Assembly (NCBI GenBank): GCA_002118135.1
Contig: BDIU01000066.1
Coordinates: 120,824-184,823, forward strand
Length of the DNA: 64,000 nt
Reading direction: 5' to 3'
Origin: Trebouxia sp. TZW2008
Taxonomy: Eukaryota > Chlorophyta > Trebouxiophyceae > Trebouxiales > Trebouxiaceae
Notes under the pieces: generated by a model
What the model saw: only the letters and a program-made list of their open reading frames with translations
The model's database searches: none
Told to the model about the DNA's origin: nothing
Translations under genes and position numbers: made by a program
In this document: in pieces, positions 302-63,818 of the stretch
How positions within the stretch are numbered: the stretch's first letter is position 1
Layout: each line of letters starts with the position of its first letter

Positions 302-3028
302 GTCCAGGAGCACCAGGGGCTACAGCAGGTGGCGCTGGTCAATGGGCAGCCCCCCCTACCCCACCATTCCAGCACCCCAAGGTCAACCCCTTCCTGCCCA
401 AAGCCCAGGAGGGGCCTCAAGGGGGCCCTCAGGGAAGTCAGGCACCCGACCCTGCACAACAGCGCCCGCCCAGCGCTGGCAATCAAGAATTCTCCACTAG
501 TCAGAGCAATGTAAGCTAATATGCTGTTTCACGCTTTGCAGTTTACGCTGCAATTGACTGTGTTCTGTGGCTCCTGTTGAGCTTCTGCTGCTGGCTGATG
601 AAATGTCAGCAGAATGAGATGGTCAGTCCAAGCAAGCGCCCATAGTGAGCCAGGTTGGAACGCATGGCTTTTATCGTCATACTGCTGACAGATGCTGCCA
701 GCAGAGCAGCAATCTGCAAACCTGATACTCGAAATGTAAAGCCATTGCATGTCAGGCATCATAACAGCACAAACATCATTGCTGGTAGATGCCCTGCAGC
801 AATCAGTGTGATGTTGTTGCTGAGTGGCTGCATTTTGAGATGATAGCCTTTTGTGATTAGTGTCTTTACCAACTCAGGAAACATCAGCACAAGAGCTCTT
901 GGGCGCCTGCCAAAAATGCTGTCATTGACCTGCTCCTCATCAGTCAGCCTTGTGAAGTCACAAGCAGTTCACAAGATCTGTGTGAACTTGCGCCTTCACT
1001 GCTGCGTACAATTTGAGGGCCATTTTGATAGGCAAAGCAGATTGATTGACATTACTGTGATGTCGACTTGCAGGGTAAGTACAATGATGCCAACTCAGCT
1101 GCAGCAGCTGCCAGGCAGTACTACCTGCAAGCCAAGCTAGCATCTGAGGAAGCTGAGCGCTGGGCTCAAGGCAAGCTCTCCTAGCTCATATGTAAATGAA
1201 TCTCTTCAAAACTGCTGTGTGTGGCGCATTCAGCTCTTGTTCAGCTATGTCAACTATGCAGCGTTATCGCTGACTGTGCGTTGCTAGAGTCTGAGTCCTG
1301 CCCTGGACTGCTTCAATTTGTGTTTTGTTGCAGTCCCAATTCTCTCTTGACTGTGCTTGCTGTAGTAGCAATATGGCAGCAGATACAGGTCCTAGAACAA
1401 TGAGGGCGTGCTGAATGCAGGGTCAAGTAGTCAGACAAGCAATCCAACCTCAAACCAGTTTCCGGGTTTCCAGCCTGGAGCATCACAGGGACCCTTACTG
1501 CGGCCTCCAGTAGTGCCCTCATCTGGGGACAGGCAGGAGTCATCAAAAGCTTCATCCGTTGGTCAAGGTCCTCCCCCAGGTAAACTTGTTTGCTTCTTAG
1601 ACCACATTTTTATCTTGTAGTACCAGGCCCTCAGAGGACCATGACTTGCACTGCTGAGCAAGCTGTGCAGGTTTCTGGTGTTACTTGATAGTGAAATTGC
1701 TGAAATTTGTGAGGATATTTGCAGTACAGTCGTTGCTGATACATGTCAAGTTCAGTCGTTTCTCGCATATCATTCATTGACCAGTCACTGTGATCTTCCT
1801 GATTTCAAAGAATCTGTTGTAGAAGCTTGTAGCAATTTCATCAACCAATGGCCATTGGCTTTATAAACATGCAATGTCTTGGCTATGACATGCTTCTTGC
1901 TGATGTTGCAGTCAAGTTTGCGCGCTCTACTAGTGACATTCAGCGGGCGTATGATGCTGCACCTGGACCACCAACCAAAGGTGTTGTCCCGGATGAGGGG
2001 CCGCCCACAGCCCCCCCAGCGCCTCCAGTCCCACCCCCAGACAGATCTTCCTCAGGTGAGTCTAGCCTTAACAGACTGAAAAACTGTGCCAATACCACAA
2101 TGCAATACAAAGCACCCCTGCATAGGTCTTCCTCAGGGCAGGTCACCCTGGACAGACTGAGAATTGGATCCAAAGCAGCTTCTGACAGACTTGCATCATG
2201 ACAATAGATTGCATCTGTACGTATGTAGTTGCTAGGGTCCAAAGCCTGCCTGCCAAGCGTGTTCAATGCAGGAATTATGAGTAGTCTGTGCCAGAGCGAC
2301 AATGCAATGCAAAGCAGGAGCGCATGTGCTGATCTTCCACCCGTGATGAGTCTGCCTCAAGTCATCATCACTTATGTACAACATGTTGGACCTCATGCCT
2401 TTGCTTGTGACACATGATTGCAGATGCAATGGATTAGGTTTCATCCGCTTGTTGCTGCTGTGCTTTGCATGAGCTTCTTGATGTCAGCGCTGATGGGGAG
2501 AGGATCTCTTACAGCAGGAATCATACCAAGAAATTGTCTGTTGCCTAGCAGCATCTTTGTGGCGGGGTTTTTGTTGGCATAGATTCTGTCTTACCAGCGG
2601 TGACATCCAGAAGCACGTTCGTTATAGGAAATCCAGTGCAGGAGGTTCATTGCACAATCCATCAATGTCCCTGGCAGCACCATACAGCATGTCAACTGCA
2701 TTGATACACAATGTGGGATGCATGTCATCCCATGCTGCTGGCCAGGTTTGCAGTCAGTTGCTTCTCTCATCTTGCAGCACTTCACCAAGAACCATACAGT
2801 GGCTTGCAACAGGTCATAGCCTATGTCAGGCAAGGATGCATTGCAGTCTGCAGCAGTTAGTTGAAGTCACGCTGTGTGCATGCAGTGCTGCCTAGTCCCC
2901 CAATTCAGCCCAAGAGCAGCACAGGACAGGACAGTCAACCCTCAAGTCCCAGCAACAAGAGCAGCAGACCTCCTACCAGTGACATGGATGATCTGACAGC
3001 TCGCTTTGAGGCCCTCAAGAAGCGCTGA
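302..3028 (+). CDS. IST1-like ESCRT-III regulator, 3' part (5' end outside window)
   Basis: Five exons can be chained in phase: 302-510, 1074-1170, 1421-1579, 1912-2055 and 2886-3028 (TGA). The protein is rich in Pro, Gly, Ser and Gln (for example PPTAPPAPPVPPPD), has an Ala-rich helical stretch (DANSAAAAARQYYLQAKLA), and ends in DDLTARFEALKKR. That ending fits the C-terminal MIT-interacting (MIM1-type) helix of IST1/CHMP proteins, which binds the MIT domain of the Vps4 ATPase in multivesicular body sorting. The linker plus terminal helix resembles plant IST1-like proteins. The N-terminal IST1 helical core would lie upstream of base 1 and is not seen, so the family call is an inference from the C-terminal half. 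The intron after 1170 uses a GC donor (CAAG|GCAAGC), needed because reading through gives a stop. Confidence 0.55.
2040..2180 (+). repeat. Decayed copy of an exon 3' edge in IST1-like intron
   Basis: The last bases of exon 1912-2055 with its donor (TCTTCCTCAGGTGAG) recur at about 2127-2160 as TCTTCCTCAGGGCAGG followed by a matching ACAGACTGA segment. A further matching piece (ACAATGCAATxCAAAGCA) is seen near 2097 and 2299. Confidence 0.55.
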
Positions 3029-3162
3029 AAGCCTTTTCCAGCTGCCTATGTGCTGACATTGCTTATCAATATCCAAGTGGTTTTGCTAAGTTCTGACAAG
3101 GCTCAAGTTGATAGGCCTTACAGGAAGTTGGCAGGCCCAGTAGTGTGTTTAGTCAGCTGTTG
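3029..3162. other. Convergent 3' intergenic gap
   Basis: A 134 bp gap between the stops of the IST1-like and TMEM19-like genes. It must hold both 3' UTRs, or they overlap. No further feature is seen. Confidence 0.5.
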
Positions 3163-62100: not shown

Positions 62101-63818
62101 TCCCTCCTCATCTTCGTTTAGCTATGCTTGCAATGCTTGCGACTCATGCAGCAACTTCACGGCAGCTTTGATCTTGCATTCCATCTGACCGCACAGGTTG
62201 GAGGTCCAGTTTGCAGATAGCTGTTTGCAATATGACGGCAAGCACATCAACACATGCACTCACTCTGCGTCAAAGTACAATAGCCAAGCCCAGCGTAGTC
62301 ACTGTGATGATGCAAAGATTCTGTGCTGTTGTGCACAATCTGAGGAGCTTGCAGCATGGTTTCACAAGGCTGCCAAACCTATTTGATAGCGTGCTACTGA
62401 CTCAGGAAACACTTCTACCGCTTCCCAGCATTTCCTGCACAGGCTGCAGAGCTCTGCTACCACGCCGCCAATGACACGCCTAGCGCTTTTGCTGCTTGCC
62501 TGCACCTTCACAGACAGAGACGTGGTCAAGCTGAAGGTCAGCCACTCACAGAAGCTGTTCCTATGCAATGCTTTTGTGTCTTGCTTGTTCAATGAGTGTG
62601 ACACAAGCAAGTACTTCAAATGGTGCAATACATGTGTGCATTACTGCATGATGTTTGAACTATGCTGAAGTAGTATGGGTCAAGCATCAGCACAATATCA
62701 TTTCCTCACACAGATCTTGGTCAGCAGCTGCTTGCCAATCGCGTTGATGAATCTGCAGCGCTGCGTGTGCTTTGTGTCCTTCATGCAAAATCAGCTGTGA
62801 GCTGCTCAACTCTGTCCAGGCACAGCACTCACATGTTGTTGCAATTTGACTGCATACTCCTCCTTGGTGCTAGAAGTGCGCCATTTTTGTTTATGACAGC
62901 TTTGGATGGTTCAAGAATCAAGTCAGCTTGCTAGGCCAGCTTGCTAGCCAGTCAGGTTTGGCCCATTTCGTCTGCAGGCTTGTACCCACAGTTGCACGCC
63001 CGACAGCATAACTTTTATTTACTTTTCTGCTTGTCTGCAGGAAGCTTTCTGGCGCCTGGATAAGGATATGGATGGTAGAATCAGTCTGGCTGAGCTTCAA
63101 CAGGCTGTCTCAACCAGCCCTGTCACCCCAAGGGCTGTGACAAACAGCCCTATCACCCCAAGGCTTGTGCCAAACAGCCCTGTCACCCCAAGGGCTGTGC
63201 CAGACAGCCCTGACGCAGGCACTGAGGCCCTCTTTGCAGCAGCTGACATGGACAAGAGCGGCGCAATTGACTTCACCAAGTTCATTGCTGTGATGTTGGA
63301 CAGTTCTATGGTAGCAAGGTAAATGTGGCATACATAGCAGCATCTGACAGTGCTTGACATGGCCACAAGCAGTAATCAATGCGCATGGCATGCTTGTACC
63401 ATGACCTCTGTTTGTCAGTAATGCAGCACAGTGTATGTTCACTTTCTGTTGCAAATGATTAGCAGCCCATGGCAGGCTTTATAGGTGATGTTTGTTCATG
63501 CTTGATCAGCTAACAGCGGAACTTCACAGTGTTGACAGCCCCGACTCAATCATGCTGCAGGCATGACGACATCTTGTATAAGAGCTTCGTCACTACATTT
63601 TCAGTGTGTTGCTTGCTCTAGCTGATGTGTGATGCAGGCATGACGACGTCTTGCGCAATAGCTTTGCCGCTCTTGATGGAGACAAGGATGGCATGCTGTC
63701 TGAGCAGGACTTGATCAATGCGCTGCAGCAAAAGGGCATGTCAAGCATGACATCTAAAGTCTTGCTGCTGCTTCAGAAATTTGATCACAATGGCGATGGC
63801 AAGCTTGACTTACATGAG
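59135..63818 (+). CDS. CDPK: Calcium-dependent protein kinase (CDPK), 3' end outside window
   Basis: Eight exons agree in phase (501 codons): 59135-59329, 59497-59712, 60659-60892, 61255-61405, 61954-62093, 62429-62536, 63041-63318 and 63638-63818. The kinase domain has the Gly loop GHGAFAKV, Lys in [23 protein letters not shown] and APEV, followed by [19 protein letters not shown] junction region ([15 protein letters not shown]...[15 protein letters not shown]) resembles the CDPK autoinhibitory/Ca-binding-lobe entry. Then come four EF loops: [36 protein letters not shown] and [14 protein letters not shown]2 has Lys at position 12 where Glu normally completes calcium binding. The EF1-EF2 linker carries repeated [14 protein letters not shown] decapeptides. 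The start MLAFCCGD lacks the usual myristoylation glycine but has a Cys pair. The exon for the C-terminal end follows beyond 64000. Confidence 0.9.
59755..59890 (+). repeat. 62-bp direct repeat in CDPK intron 2
   Basis: Two units share GCTTGTTGTAC/GCCTGTTGTAC, CTCAGCAGCAT/TTCAGCAGCAT and GxCAAAGGATC in order. Confidence 0.8.
60290..60745 (+). repeat. Three tandem copies of the CDPK catalytic-loop exon's 5' edge
   Basis: Copies begin at about 60313, 60491 and the real 60659, each after CTTTGCAG or CCTTGCAG. They read [34 protein letters not shown] and [20 protein letters not shown]. Only the last continues into HRDLKPEN; copies 1 and 2 run into stops. Period ~172 bp, with shared spacer CAACCCATTGCAAGCCA. 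Confidence 0.94.
61345..61560 (+). repeat. Copy of CDPK exon 61255-61405 3' edge with donor
   Basis: GACAATGCCATTCTGCG and CAGTTCACCTTCACAGGTG recur 117 bp downstream at about 61474-61523, with matching intron after them. Confidence 0.92.
63105..63210 (+). repeat. Coding 30-bp minisatellite in the CDPK EF1-EF2 linker
   Basis: Units of the type AGCCCTGTCACCCCAAGGGC recur at 63117, 63147 and 63177, coding [12 protein letters not shown] decapeptides. Confidence 0.92.
63555..63665 (+). repeat. Copy of CDPK exon 63638 5' edge
   Basis: TGCAGGCATGACG(A)CATCTTGTATAAGAGCTT at 63557-63590 mirrors the true exon start TGCAGGCATGACGACGTCTTG at 63633, 77 bp later, with a second usable acceptor. Confidence 0.88.

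Follow-up and report, generated by a model that had tools for sequence, protein, structure and literature searches.

Exon edges repeated in neighbouring introns of a Trebouxia contig: probably aged local tandem duplications, with an edge effect only partly explained

Introduction

The window studied here, a stretch of 64,000 nucleotides from contig BDIU01000066.1 (Trebouxia sp. TZW2008, assembly GCA_002118135.1, positions 120,824 to 184,823 of the forward strand), contains exons whose edges recur in the adjoining introns. These exon-edge copies, i.e. repeats of the head (acceptor side) or the tail (donor side) of an exon, resemble several described systems in part. Introner elements add intron DNA recurrently and exist as many similar dispersed copies. 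The exon-edge copies share the gain of intron DNA, but a dispersed family was not found: two spacers between exon and copy were searched across the 68.5-Mb genome, and each matched only itself (counts being lower bounds). The Rogers model reportedly ascribes intron gain to exonic tandem duplication near splice sites. The likeness lies in tandem duplication near splice sites that adds non-coding sequence; here, however, the duplicated DNA sits in introns beside the exon. Minisatellites consist of near-identical units in high copy number, whereas Tandem Repeats Finder (TRF) gave 1.8–3.4 copies for the seven window arrays with a period of at least 60 bp, and 154 of 171 duplicate pairs are 70–90% identical, none reaching 95%.

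Tandem or mutually exclusive exons, for which a section of PMC9013439 describes the adjacent repetition of an exon together with splice sites, share the side-by-side repeats. The copies here, however, are mostly partial, their alignment gaps are mostly non-triplet, many of them decay as if neutral, and they do not each carry both splice sites. The closest system is that of small tandem duplications arising through fill-in and end joining of DNA breaks, which a section of PMC8355091 documents in other eukaryotes. The likeness consists in local head-to-tail copies and in a position that is random with respect to gene parts, as we find outside the window, with a mild enrichment of splice sites inside it. 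In that section they are insertions of less than 100 bp, whereas the units here measure about 80–220 bp, are old and dense, and often have unique spacers. Titles and opening lines of abstracts gave no description of exon-derived intronic repeats, which is not proof that they are unreported; the word ‘tandem’ is absent from the main text of the Trebouxia genome papers PMC11523091, PMC12712428 and PMC11126685.

With a probability of roughly 0.6, we regard the exon-edge copies as a dense, aged form of this known mutation type, the edge effect being only partly explained. If so, the genome would be a fossil bed of short tandem duplication, amounting to about 12–15% of the sampled DNA, by which introns grew, and the decoy splice sites beside real ones would constitute a natural experiment on spliceosome choice.

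Local duplications and their position relative to splice junctions

Our sample comprised 210 kb of one genome, i.e. the window and 15 outside loci (146 kb on 10 contigs), and exons are those called by a small hidden Markov gene finder trained on the same sequences. As duplicates we recorded same-strand pairs that score at least 45 bits and lie 40–800 bp apart. This yielded 171 local pairs in 86 arrays, or about four arrays per 10 kb; the window holds 52 of these pairs (25 arrays) and the outside loci the other 119 (61 arrays). Self-comparison of the window, limited to less than 1.5 kb between partners, returned 51 pairs on the same strand. It is important to note that duplicates were present in 13 of the 15 outside loci, so that the recurrent local process put forward in the original prediction extends beyond the window. 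Two loci (L002 and L003) had no local pair at these thresholds, i.e. the density varies between loci. The smallest period is 80–220 bp in 73 of the 86 arrays, and recognisable duplicates cover 15% of predicted exon sequence and 12–14% of the other sampled DNA.

Pair identity peaks at 75–85%. Young pairs are nearly lacking: only 3 of 171 reach at least 90%, and exact repeats of at least 40 bp within 800 bp occur at five places. Since loss alone cannot remove young pairs at steady state when survival only falls with age, the past rate of duplication would have been higher. Barring assembly collapse of near-identical copies, the scarcity of young pairs suggests that duplication has slowed or stopped. 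Gaps occur at 0.015 per column in the exon-copy parts of the alignments vs 0.039 in the intron parts, and 14 of the 117 gaps in exon-copy alignments have a length that is a multiple of three. Among two-copy arrays (n = 45), the arms overlap or lie within 5 bp of each other in 8, are 6–30 bp apart in 8 and more than 30 bp apart in 29; in four of these 29 the spacer resembles the expected flank at z > 2.

When sorted by type, 102 pairs join exon and intron, 42 are exon-free, 18 are exon-exon and 9 are ambiguous; for the 52 window pairs the figures are 33 (true exon and non-exon copy), 13, 5 and 1, respectively. Exon-free and exon-exon pairs are common as well. In an edge test of the kind proposed originally, the first and last 60 bp of exons, exon centres, non-exon segments and shuffled segments were sought in the local DNA. 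Local copies were found for 63 of 414 exon edges and 27 of 207 exon centres (p = 0.55), for 67 of 813 non-exon segments, and for none of 207 shuffled exon segments. What came nearest to an edge excess was the 5′ edge outside the window (27 of 142 vs 17 of 142 for centres, p = 0.14). Exon segments as a whole have copies more often than non-exon segments (90 of 621 vs 67 of 813, p = 0.0002), which we attribute to the decay of only one partner in an exon-copy pair.

In a rotation test, the duplications were rotated against the gene models and the splice sites in duplicated DNA were counted. Outside the window, 75 deduplicated splice sites are covered vs 74.3 expected (p = 0.49), i.e. chance level, whereas the window shows a mild enrichment (39 vs 29, p = 0.012). 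Pairs touching a true exon number 120 against about 107 expected. There are fewer exon-exon pairs than expected (18 vs 40) and more exon-intron pairs (102 vs 67), an outcome that selection against altered exons would bring about; part of this shift stems from relabelling predicted exon copies as copies. Before such predicted copies were removed, junction coverage by duplicates peaked at 0.16–0.24. Junction targeting as a placement rule is not supported, and duplication sites are approximately random with respect to exons in the sample. The original prediction had argued that ordinary tandem repeats would show no such strong preference for junctions, which is not supported, and had named the lack of a genome-wide excess of edge over centre copies as a result that would refute its reading. 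Exon edges have no excess over centres in our sample, and the junctions are at chance outside the window and only slightly above it inside.

Two classes of exon-edge copy

We scored 94 junction pairs (97 before removal of three rows that were repeated or near a sequence end); of 46 downstream exon-intron pairs, five with an arm ending over 20 bp away from the junction had been dropped earlier. The intron flanks are significantly similar in 47 pairs, unrelated in 40 and intermediate in 7. The initial view that the copied unit spans the exon-intron junction is borne out by the first group only. In this similar-flank class, flank identity is 0.69–0.81 beyond the first 10 bp, and with a synonymous divergence (dS) of 0.36 and a nonsynonymous divergence (dN) of 0.20 (ratio 0.56) the class can be explained by one neutral age, as ordinary tandem duplication.

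In the 40 copies with unrelated flanks, similarity stops at the splice site or no more than about 15 bp away from it. Identity is about 0.8 on the exon side, whereas the intron side beyond about 15 bp is at the level of unrelated splice sites, and 27 upstream copies show a sharp identity step at the acceptor. For this class dS is 0.46, dN 0.17 and the ratio 0.38; by local alignment, dN/dS is 0.31 [0.23–0.40] and dS 0.42 [0.35–0.50]. The highest exon-edge identity is 0.94 over 50 bp. Flank similarity hidden by a larger indel was considered and set aside, as local alignment gave p ≤ 0.05 in just 3 of 27 upstream and 4 of 13 downstream cases.

Head copies lie upstream of the exon and tail copies mostly downstream; the exception is a 339-bp exon in L011 with a head and a middle copy downstream. 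All 56 upstream copies begin outside the exon or at most 15 bp within it. The AG is kept in 40 of 49 acceptor copies and the GT in 23 of 38 donor copies. Intactness and dN/dS were tabulated for 71 of the 94 pairs (23 were omitted as intermediate, with a window past the exon or with fewer than 12 codons). Of these copies, 39 have no stop or frameshift across the aligned stretch. Intact copies have a dN/dS of 0.24–0.25 and broken copies of 0.39 and 0.43. At the inner ends of the copies there is no significant splice-site enrichment, the best scores being 0.22 vs −0.12 for donors (standard error 0.31) and 1.38 vs 0.59 for acceptors (standard error 0.52).

Origin of the copies and alternative explanations

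According to the reading that we prefer, frequent past local tandem duplications with units of about 80–220 bp would have occurred at sites approximately random relative to exons; the density and the positions are seen directly in the sample. As exons (~120 bp) and introns (~316 bp) are short, many units would span a splice junction by chance. Selection would presumably keep those alleles that have one complete exon with working splice sites. Because the protein stays intact only if such an exon survives, the surviving copies would be intronic and point outward from the exon. This outward orientation, already described in the original prediction, is what tandem geometry together with selection on the exon leads one to expect, and the lengthening of introns also holds, as the copies add intron DNA. 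Copies would then decay while the exon stays, leaving exon copies recognisable for longer than intron copies. Break fill-in with end joining is likely the natural candidate origin, perhaps by end joining of breaks with protruding ends or of paired nicks. The sharp-edge copies would on average be somewhat older and would have been under some coding constraint for a time, which let the exon part outlast the flank; the data support this in part.

Three models were simulated and run through the same detection as the real data: strict tandem duplication with neutral copies (A), constrained copies (B) and copying bounded at the acceptor (C). Most neutral simulation cells give a dN/dS of 0.41–0.51, one small model C cell giving 0.35. 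Model B nears the observed edge at 0.22–0.30 substitutions per lineage but yields a dN/dS of 0.12–0.14 and a dS of 0.55–0.74, and its frameshifts per codon are 0.007–0.010 vs 0.023 observed. Since the observed values lie between model B and the neutral models, they point to two kinds of copy mixed together, old ones that were once constrained and younger ones that are neutral. Such a mixture is the best account and is partly supported, with the simulations not fully reproducing the edge.

Several observations weigh against this reading. Deduplicated coverage is 0.135–0.18 at junctions vs about 0.10–0.13 at 40–160 bp into introns. Model A fails for upstream copies of at least 80% identity: 22 of 33 observed copies start at −17 to +2 of the acceptor vs 16 of 357 in model A, and 30 of 33 have a spacer longer than 30 bp vs 32 of 357 (model A figures pooled over ages). 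The spacers of at least 30 bp in 73 exon-intron pairs match neither expected continuation, exceeding background by no more than a few per cent in most bins (largest difference 0.08), and a power test showed that homologous flanks would be detectable in 92–93% of cases at 0.12–0.16 substitutions per lineage. The local-alignment dN/dS hardly separates the two classes (0.31 vs 0.34 [0.26–0.46]), their dS intervals overlap, and the similar-flank class (0.34) is likewise below most neutral simulation cells. Some SBNO copies have lost conserved residues, contrary to present constraint. Finally, 12 broken, apparently neutral upstream copies have a dS of 0.23 and a ratio of 0.48, and yet 8 of the 12 show the sharp edge; some of these copies are non-independent, and one exon (L007 8973) is possibly a false prediction. 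Past coding constraint in somewhat older copies, which we prefer for the sharp-edge subset, explains it only partly.

One alternative is a process bounded by the junction itself. In this case some 100 bp at either end of an exon, counted from the splice site or from at most 15 nt outside it, would be inserted 35–150 bp out in the intron, perhaps when a break is repaired with splice-site sequence as primer or with a splicing intermediate as template. It is the foremost of the alternatives, albeit an unlikely one. The acceptor step, the lack of upstream copies starting well inside the exon, the edge in broken copies and the self-matching spacers all speak for it. Moreover, model C reproduces the edge and the spacers: at 0.06–0.14 substitutions per lineage, a fraction of 0.88–0.96 starts at −17 to +2 and 0.86–0.90 has a spacer above 30 bp. 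On the other hand, edges are not favoured over centres, and in half of the copies the flanks are similar. Most neutral cells give a higher dN/dS than that observed (0.31 or 0.38), and the observed dS of 0.42 exceeds that of model C, which at 0.10–0.18 substitutions per lineage gives a dN/dS of 0.47–0.50 and a dS of 0.22–0.31. No fresh example was found in the sample, the top identity being that 0.94 over 50 bp; TGCAG is not enriched at the ends of exon-free pairs (0.101 vs 0.118); and heads upstream with tails mostly downstream are just what tandem duplication predicts. The template variant, raised in the original prediction as repair from spliced or partly spliced templates, found no positive evidence: of the 40 unrelated copy flanks, 22 match nothing in the 210 kb, and for the remaining 18 the matches were not individually compared with the preceding exon. 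What survives of the original idea is that 40 of 94 copies lose similarity at the junction, which plain neutral tandem duplication does not predict at the identities observed. That a splice-site-bounded process copies exon heads and tails into the adjoining intron without their flanks, leaving decoy splice sites, is a claim we hold as doubtful; it would mean that splicing marks DNA repair.

Somewhat less probable is that the copies are tandem exon duplicates kept as alternative or mutually exclusive exons and now partly decayed. The 39 intact copies with their low dN/dS and the retained AG and GT agree with this. Most copies, however, are partial exons, their gaps are mostly not multiples of three, their inner ends lack significant splice-site enrichment, and broken copies fit neutral decay.

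Juxtaposition of diverged homologues, in a hybrid genome or by haplotype switching in the assembly, would make each copy the exon edge of the other parent. In principle it would jointly explain the lack of young pairs, an ortholog-like dN/dS and the exon-bounded similarity, but regular arrays of up to 3.4 copies, exon-free arrays and similar flanks in half of the junction pairs render it very improbable. A section of PMC12712428 reports another Trebouxia genome as haploid, noting a contrary ploidy report for T. lynnae. Mobile introns (introners) or another transposed element as the source of the spacers are hardly credible: the spacers of 35–150 bp are unrelated to the flanking sequence, and in L006 the flank of a copy near 5138 is similar to a dispersed repeat, but the two spacers searched are self-matching only and 22 of the 40 unrelated flanks have no match in the sample.

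Four further candidates were rejected. Copies born divergent through error-prone copying were set aside, since mismatches by codon position (0.145, 0.114 and 0.227) are highest at the third, which indicates that time has passed in the exon too. Repeat-induced mutation finds no strong excess of one change (transition/transversion ratios 1.4 and 1.1). A general TGCAG-primed duplication does not agree with the exon-free pair ends, and the enrichment at exon-intron pair ends (0.194 vs 0.133) is what their acceptors would produce. A stop at the branch point was dismissed by eye, as CTGAC ranges over positions from about −20 to −60 and does not visibly coincide with the starts of copies.

Genome setting and gene models

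The window has a GC content of ~50%, and the 68.5-Mb genome is in 527 contigs; sections of PMC11126685, PMC12712428 and PMC11523091 give 62–74 Mb and 49.6–51.1% GC for published Trebouxia genomes. Joined into one protein, the predicted SBNO exons find their best match in Trebouxia sp. C0004, with 80% identity and a query coverage of 86%, and the source organism is probably a Trebouxia-like green alga.

A 2nd-order exon model was used throughout (422 exons, 29.5% coding); it replaced a 4th-order model that under-called exons, with only 11.5–12.1% coding. The gene finder found strong TGCAG acceptors, and the lengths of exons and introns given above are its medians (120 and 316 bp). It fuses adjacent genes, so gene boundaries are unreliable, and its non-exon class pools intron and intergenic DNA. 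Compared with the Trebouxia SBNO protein, predicted SBNO exon ends are mostly within about 6 bases, one being off by 15 and one by 9, and a tiny predicted exon of this region (52565–52591) has no counterpart in that protein. Among 20 tested of the 47 copy-bearing exons, 13 have a Pfam match at E ≤ 0.01. TGCAG/CTGCA is about six-fold over-represented in the sampled non-exon DNA (1653 occurrences on both strands in 146,562 positions); part of these occurrences are genuine acceptors.

Duplicated exons in the window

The original prediction had seen the pattern in at least eight of ten genes, with the DUF815-like example given as an intron repeat. Clear intronic copies of exon edges were found in arsS (at both edges), the kinase (CDPK) gene, SBNO with its neighbour exon and the RAP/FAST genes. 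The gene that we take to be arsS contains the predicted true exon 7422–7622 (plus strand), which has no Pfam hit and of which both edges are copied. Two head copies (7009–7113 and 7161–7280, in 6995–7280) were found by self-comparison, each with an unrelated flank, and in the genome search the exon head matched only the exon and these two local copies (counts being lower bounds). Four tail copies on the same strand occupy 7708–8298, with ends near 7801, 7964, 8143 and 8297; a 342-bp unit holding two of the four seems itself to have been duplicated. Also on the plus strand, kinase exon 60659–60892 has two head copies with similar intron flanks (60247–60746), and self-comparison showed a tail copy (61470–61550) of kinase exon 61255–61405 in 61354–61550.

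All other arrays described are on the minus strand. SBNO exon 48025–48224, matched as a true exon by a Trebouxia protein (P0001), has donor-side copies in 47687–48115, and SBNO exon 52115–52266 has one head copy (52309–52399, array 52179–52399) whose similarity stops at the acceptor. In 46899–47379, exon 46856–47006, which adjoins SBNO, is accompanied by head copies at 47114–47226 and 47276–47379. Exon 41433–41537 has a nearly whole-exon copy (41631–41734, array 41440–41734) that is 89% identical, both being predicted as exons; the stretch between them is one that matched only itself in the genome.

In the RAP/FAST genes, exon 15507–15659 has a donor-side array with a period of ~105 bp (15279–15573; TRF and self-comparison), exon 16821–17037 a donor-side copy at 16642–16743 (array 16642–16916) and exon 18135–18320, a Pfam FAST_1 match, a head copy at 18387–18479 (array 18241–18479), the last two with unrelated flanks. 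Exon 20566–20845 has copies on both sides (20263–21444; TRF and self-comparison): donor-side copies end near 20441 and 20312; on the head side, an array with a period of 180 bp spans 20786–21444. In a tandem RAP/FAST paralogue, exon 24362–24652 has head-side copies in 24558–25158, i.e. the same exon head is multiplied in both genes. In a tree, the gene-2 exon groups with its own copy (support 0.98) and the gene-1 copies group together; although unrooted and built from six short sequences, it suggests separate events in the two paralogues. The region 19600–26700 as a whole consists of two adjoining diverged RAP/FAST-type gene copies with matches of 73–86%, several of which stop near predicted exon borders.

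The remaining examples of the initial list hold only in part or not at all. The array of the gene listed as encoding a secreted protein (11151–11556, period ~137 bp) is present but extends no further than 21 bp into predicted exon 11536–11643, at its donor end. In the PHD gene, an array with a period of 171 bp (38992–39437; TRF and self-comparison) exists, but its assignment to an exon is doubtful. The DUF815-like repeat (56905–57126, 70% identical) is intron-only in the gene models. No copy supports the IST1-like example at these thresholds: no local pair starts before 6995, and TRF gave only a short-period array there (6083–6177).

Further features were noted in passing. A dispersed repeat of ~180 bp, 72% identical, lies at 8980–9159 and 44806–44986 of the window, with further matches in L004, L006 and L007. 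A long open frame with glutamine-rich CAG/CAA runs extends from 30727 to 32031. In L009 (3622–5471), three citrate synthase exons identified by Pfam match adjoining parts of the profile, and each has upstream head copies.

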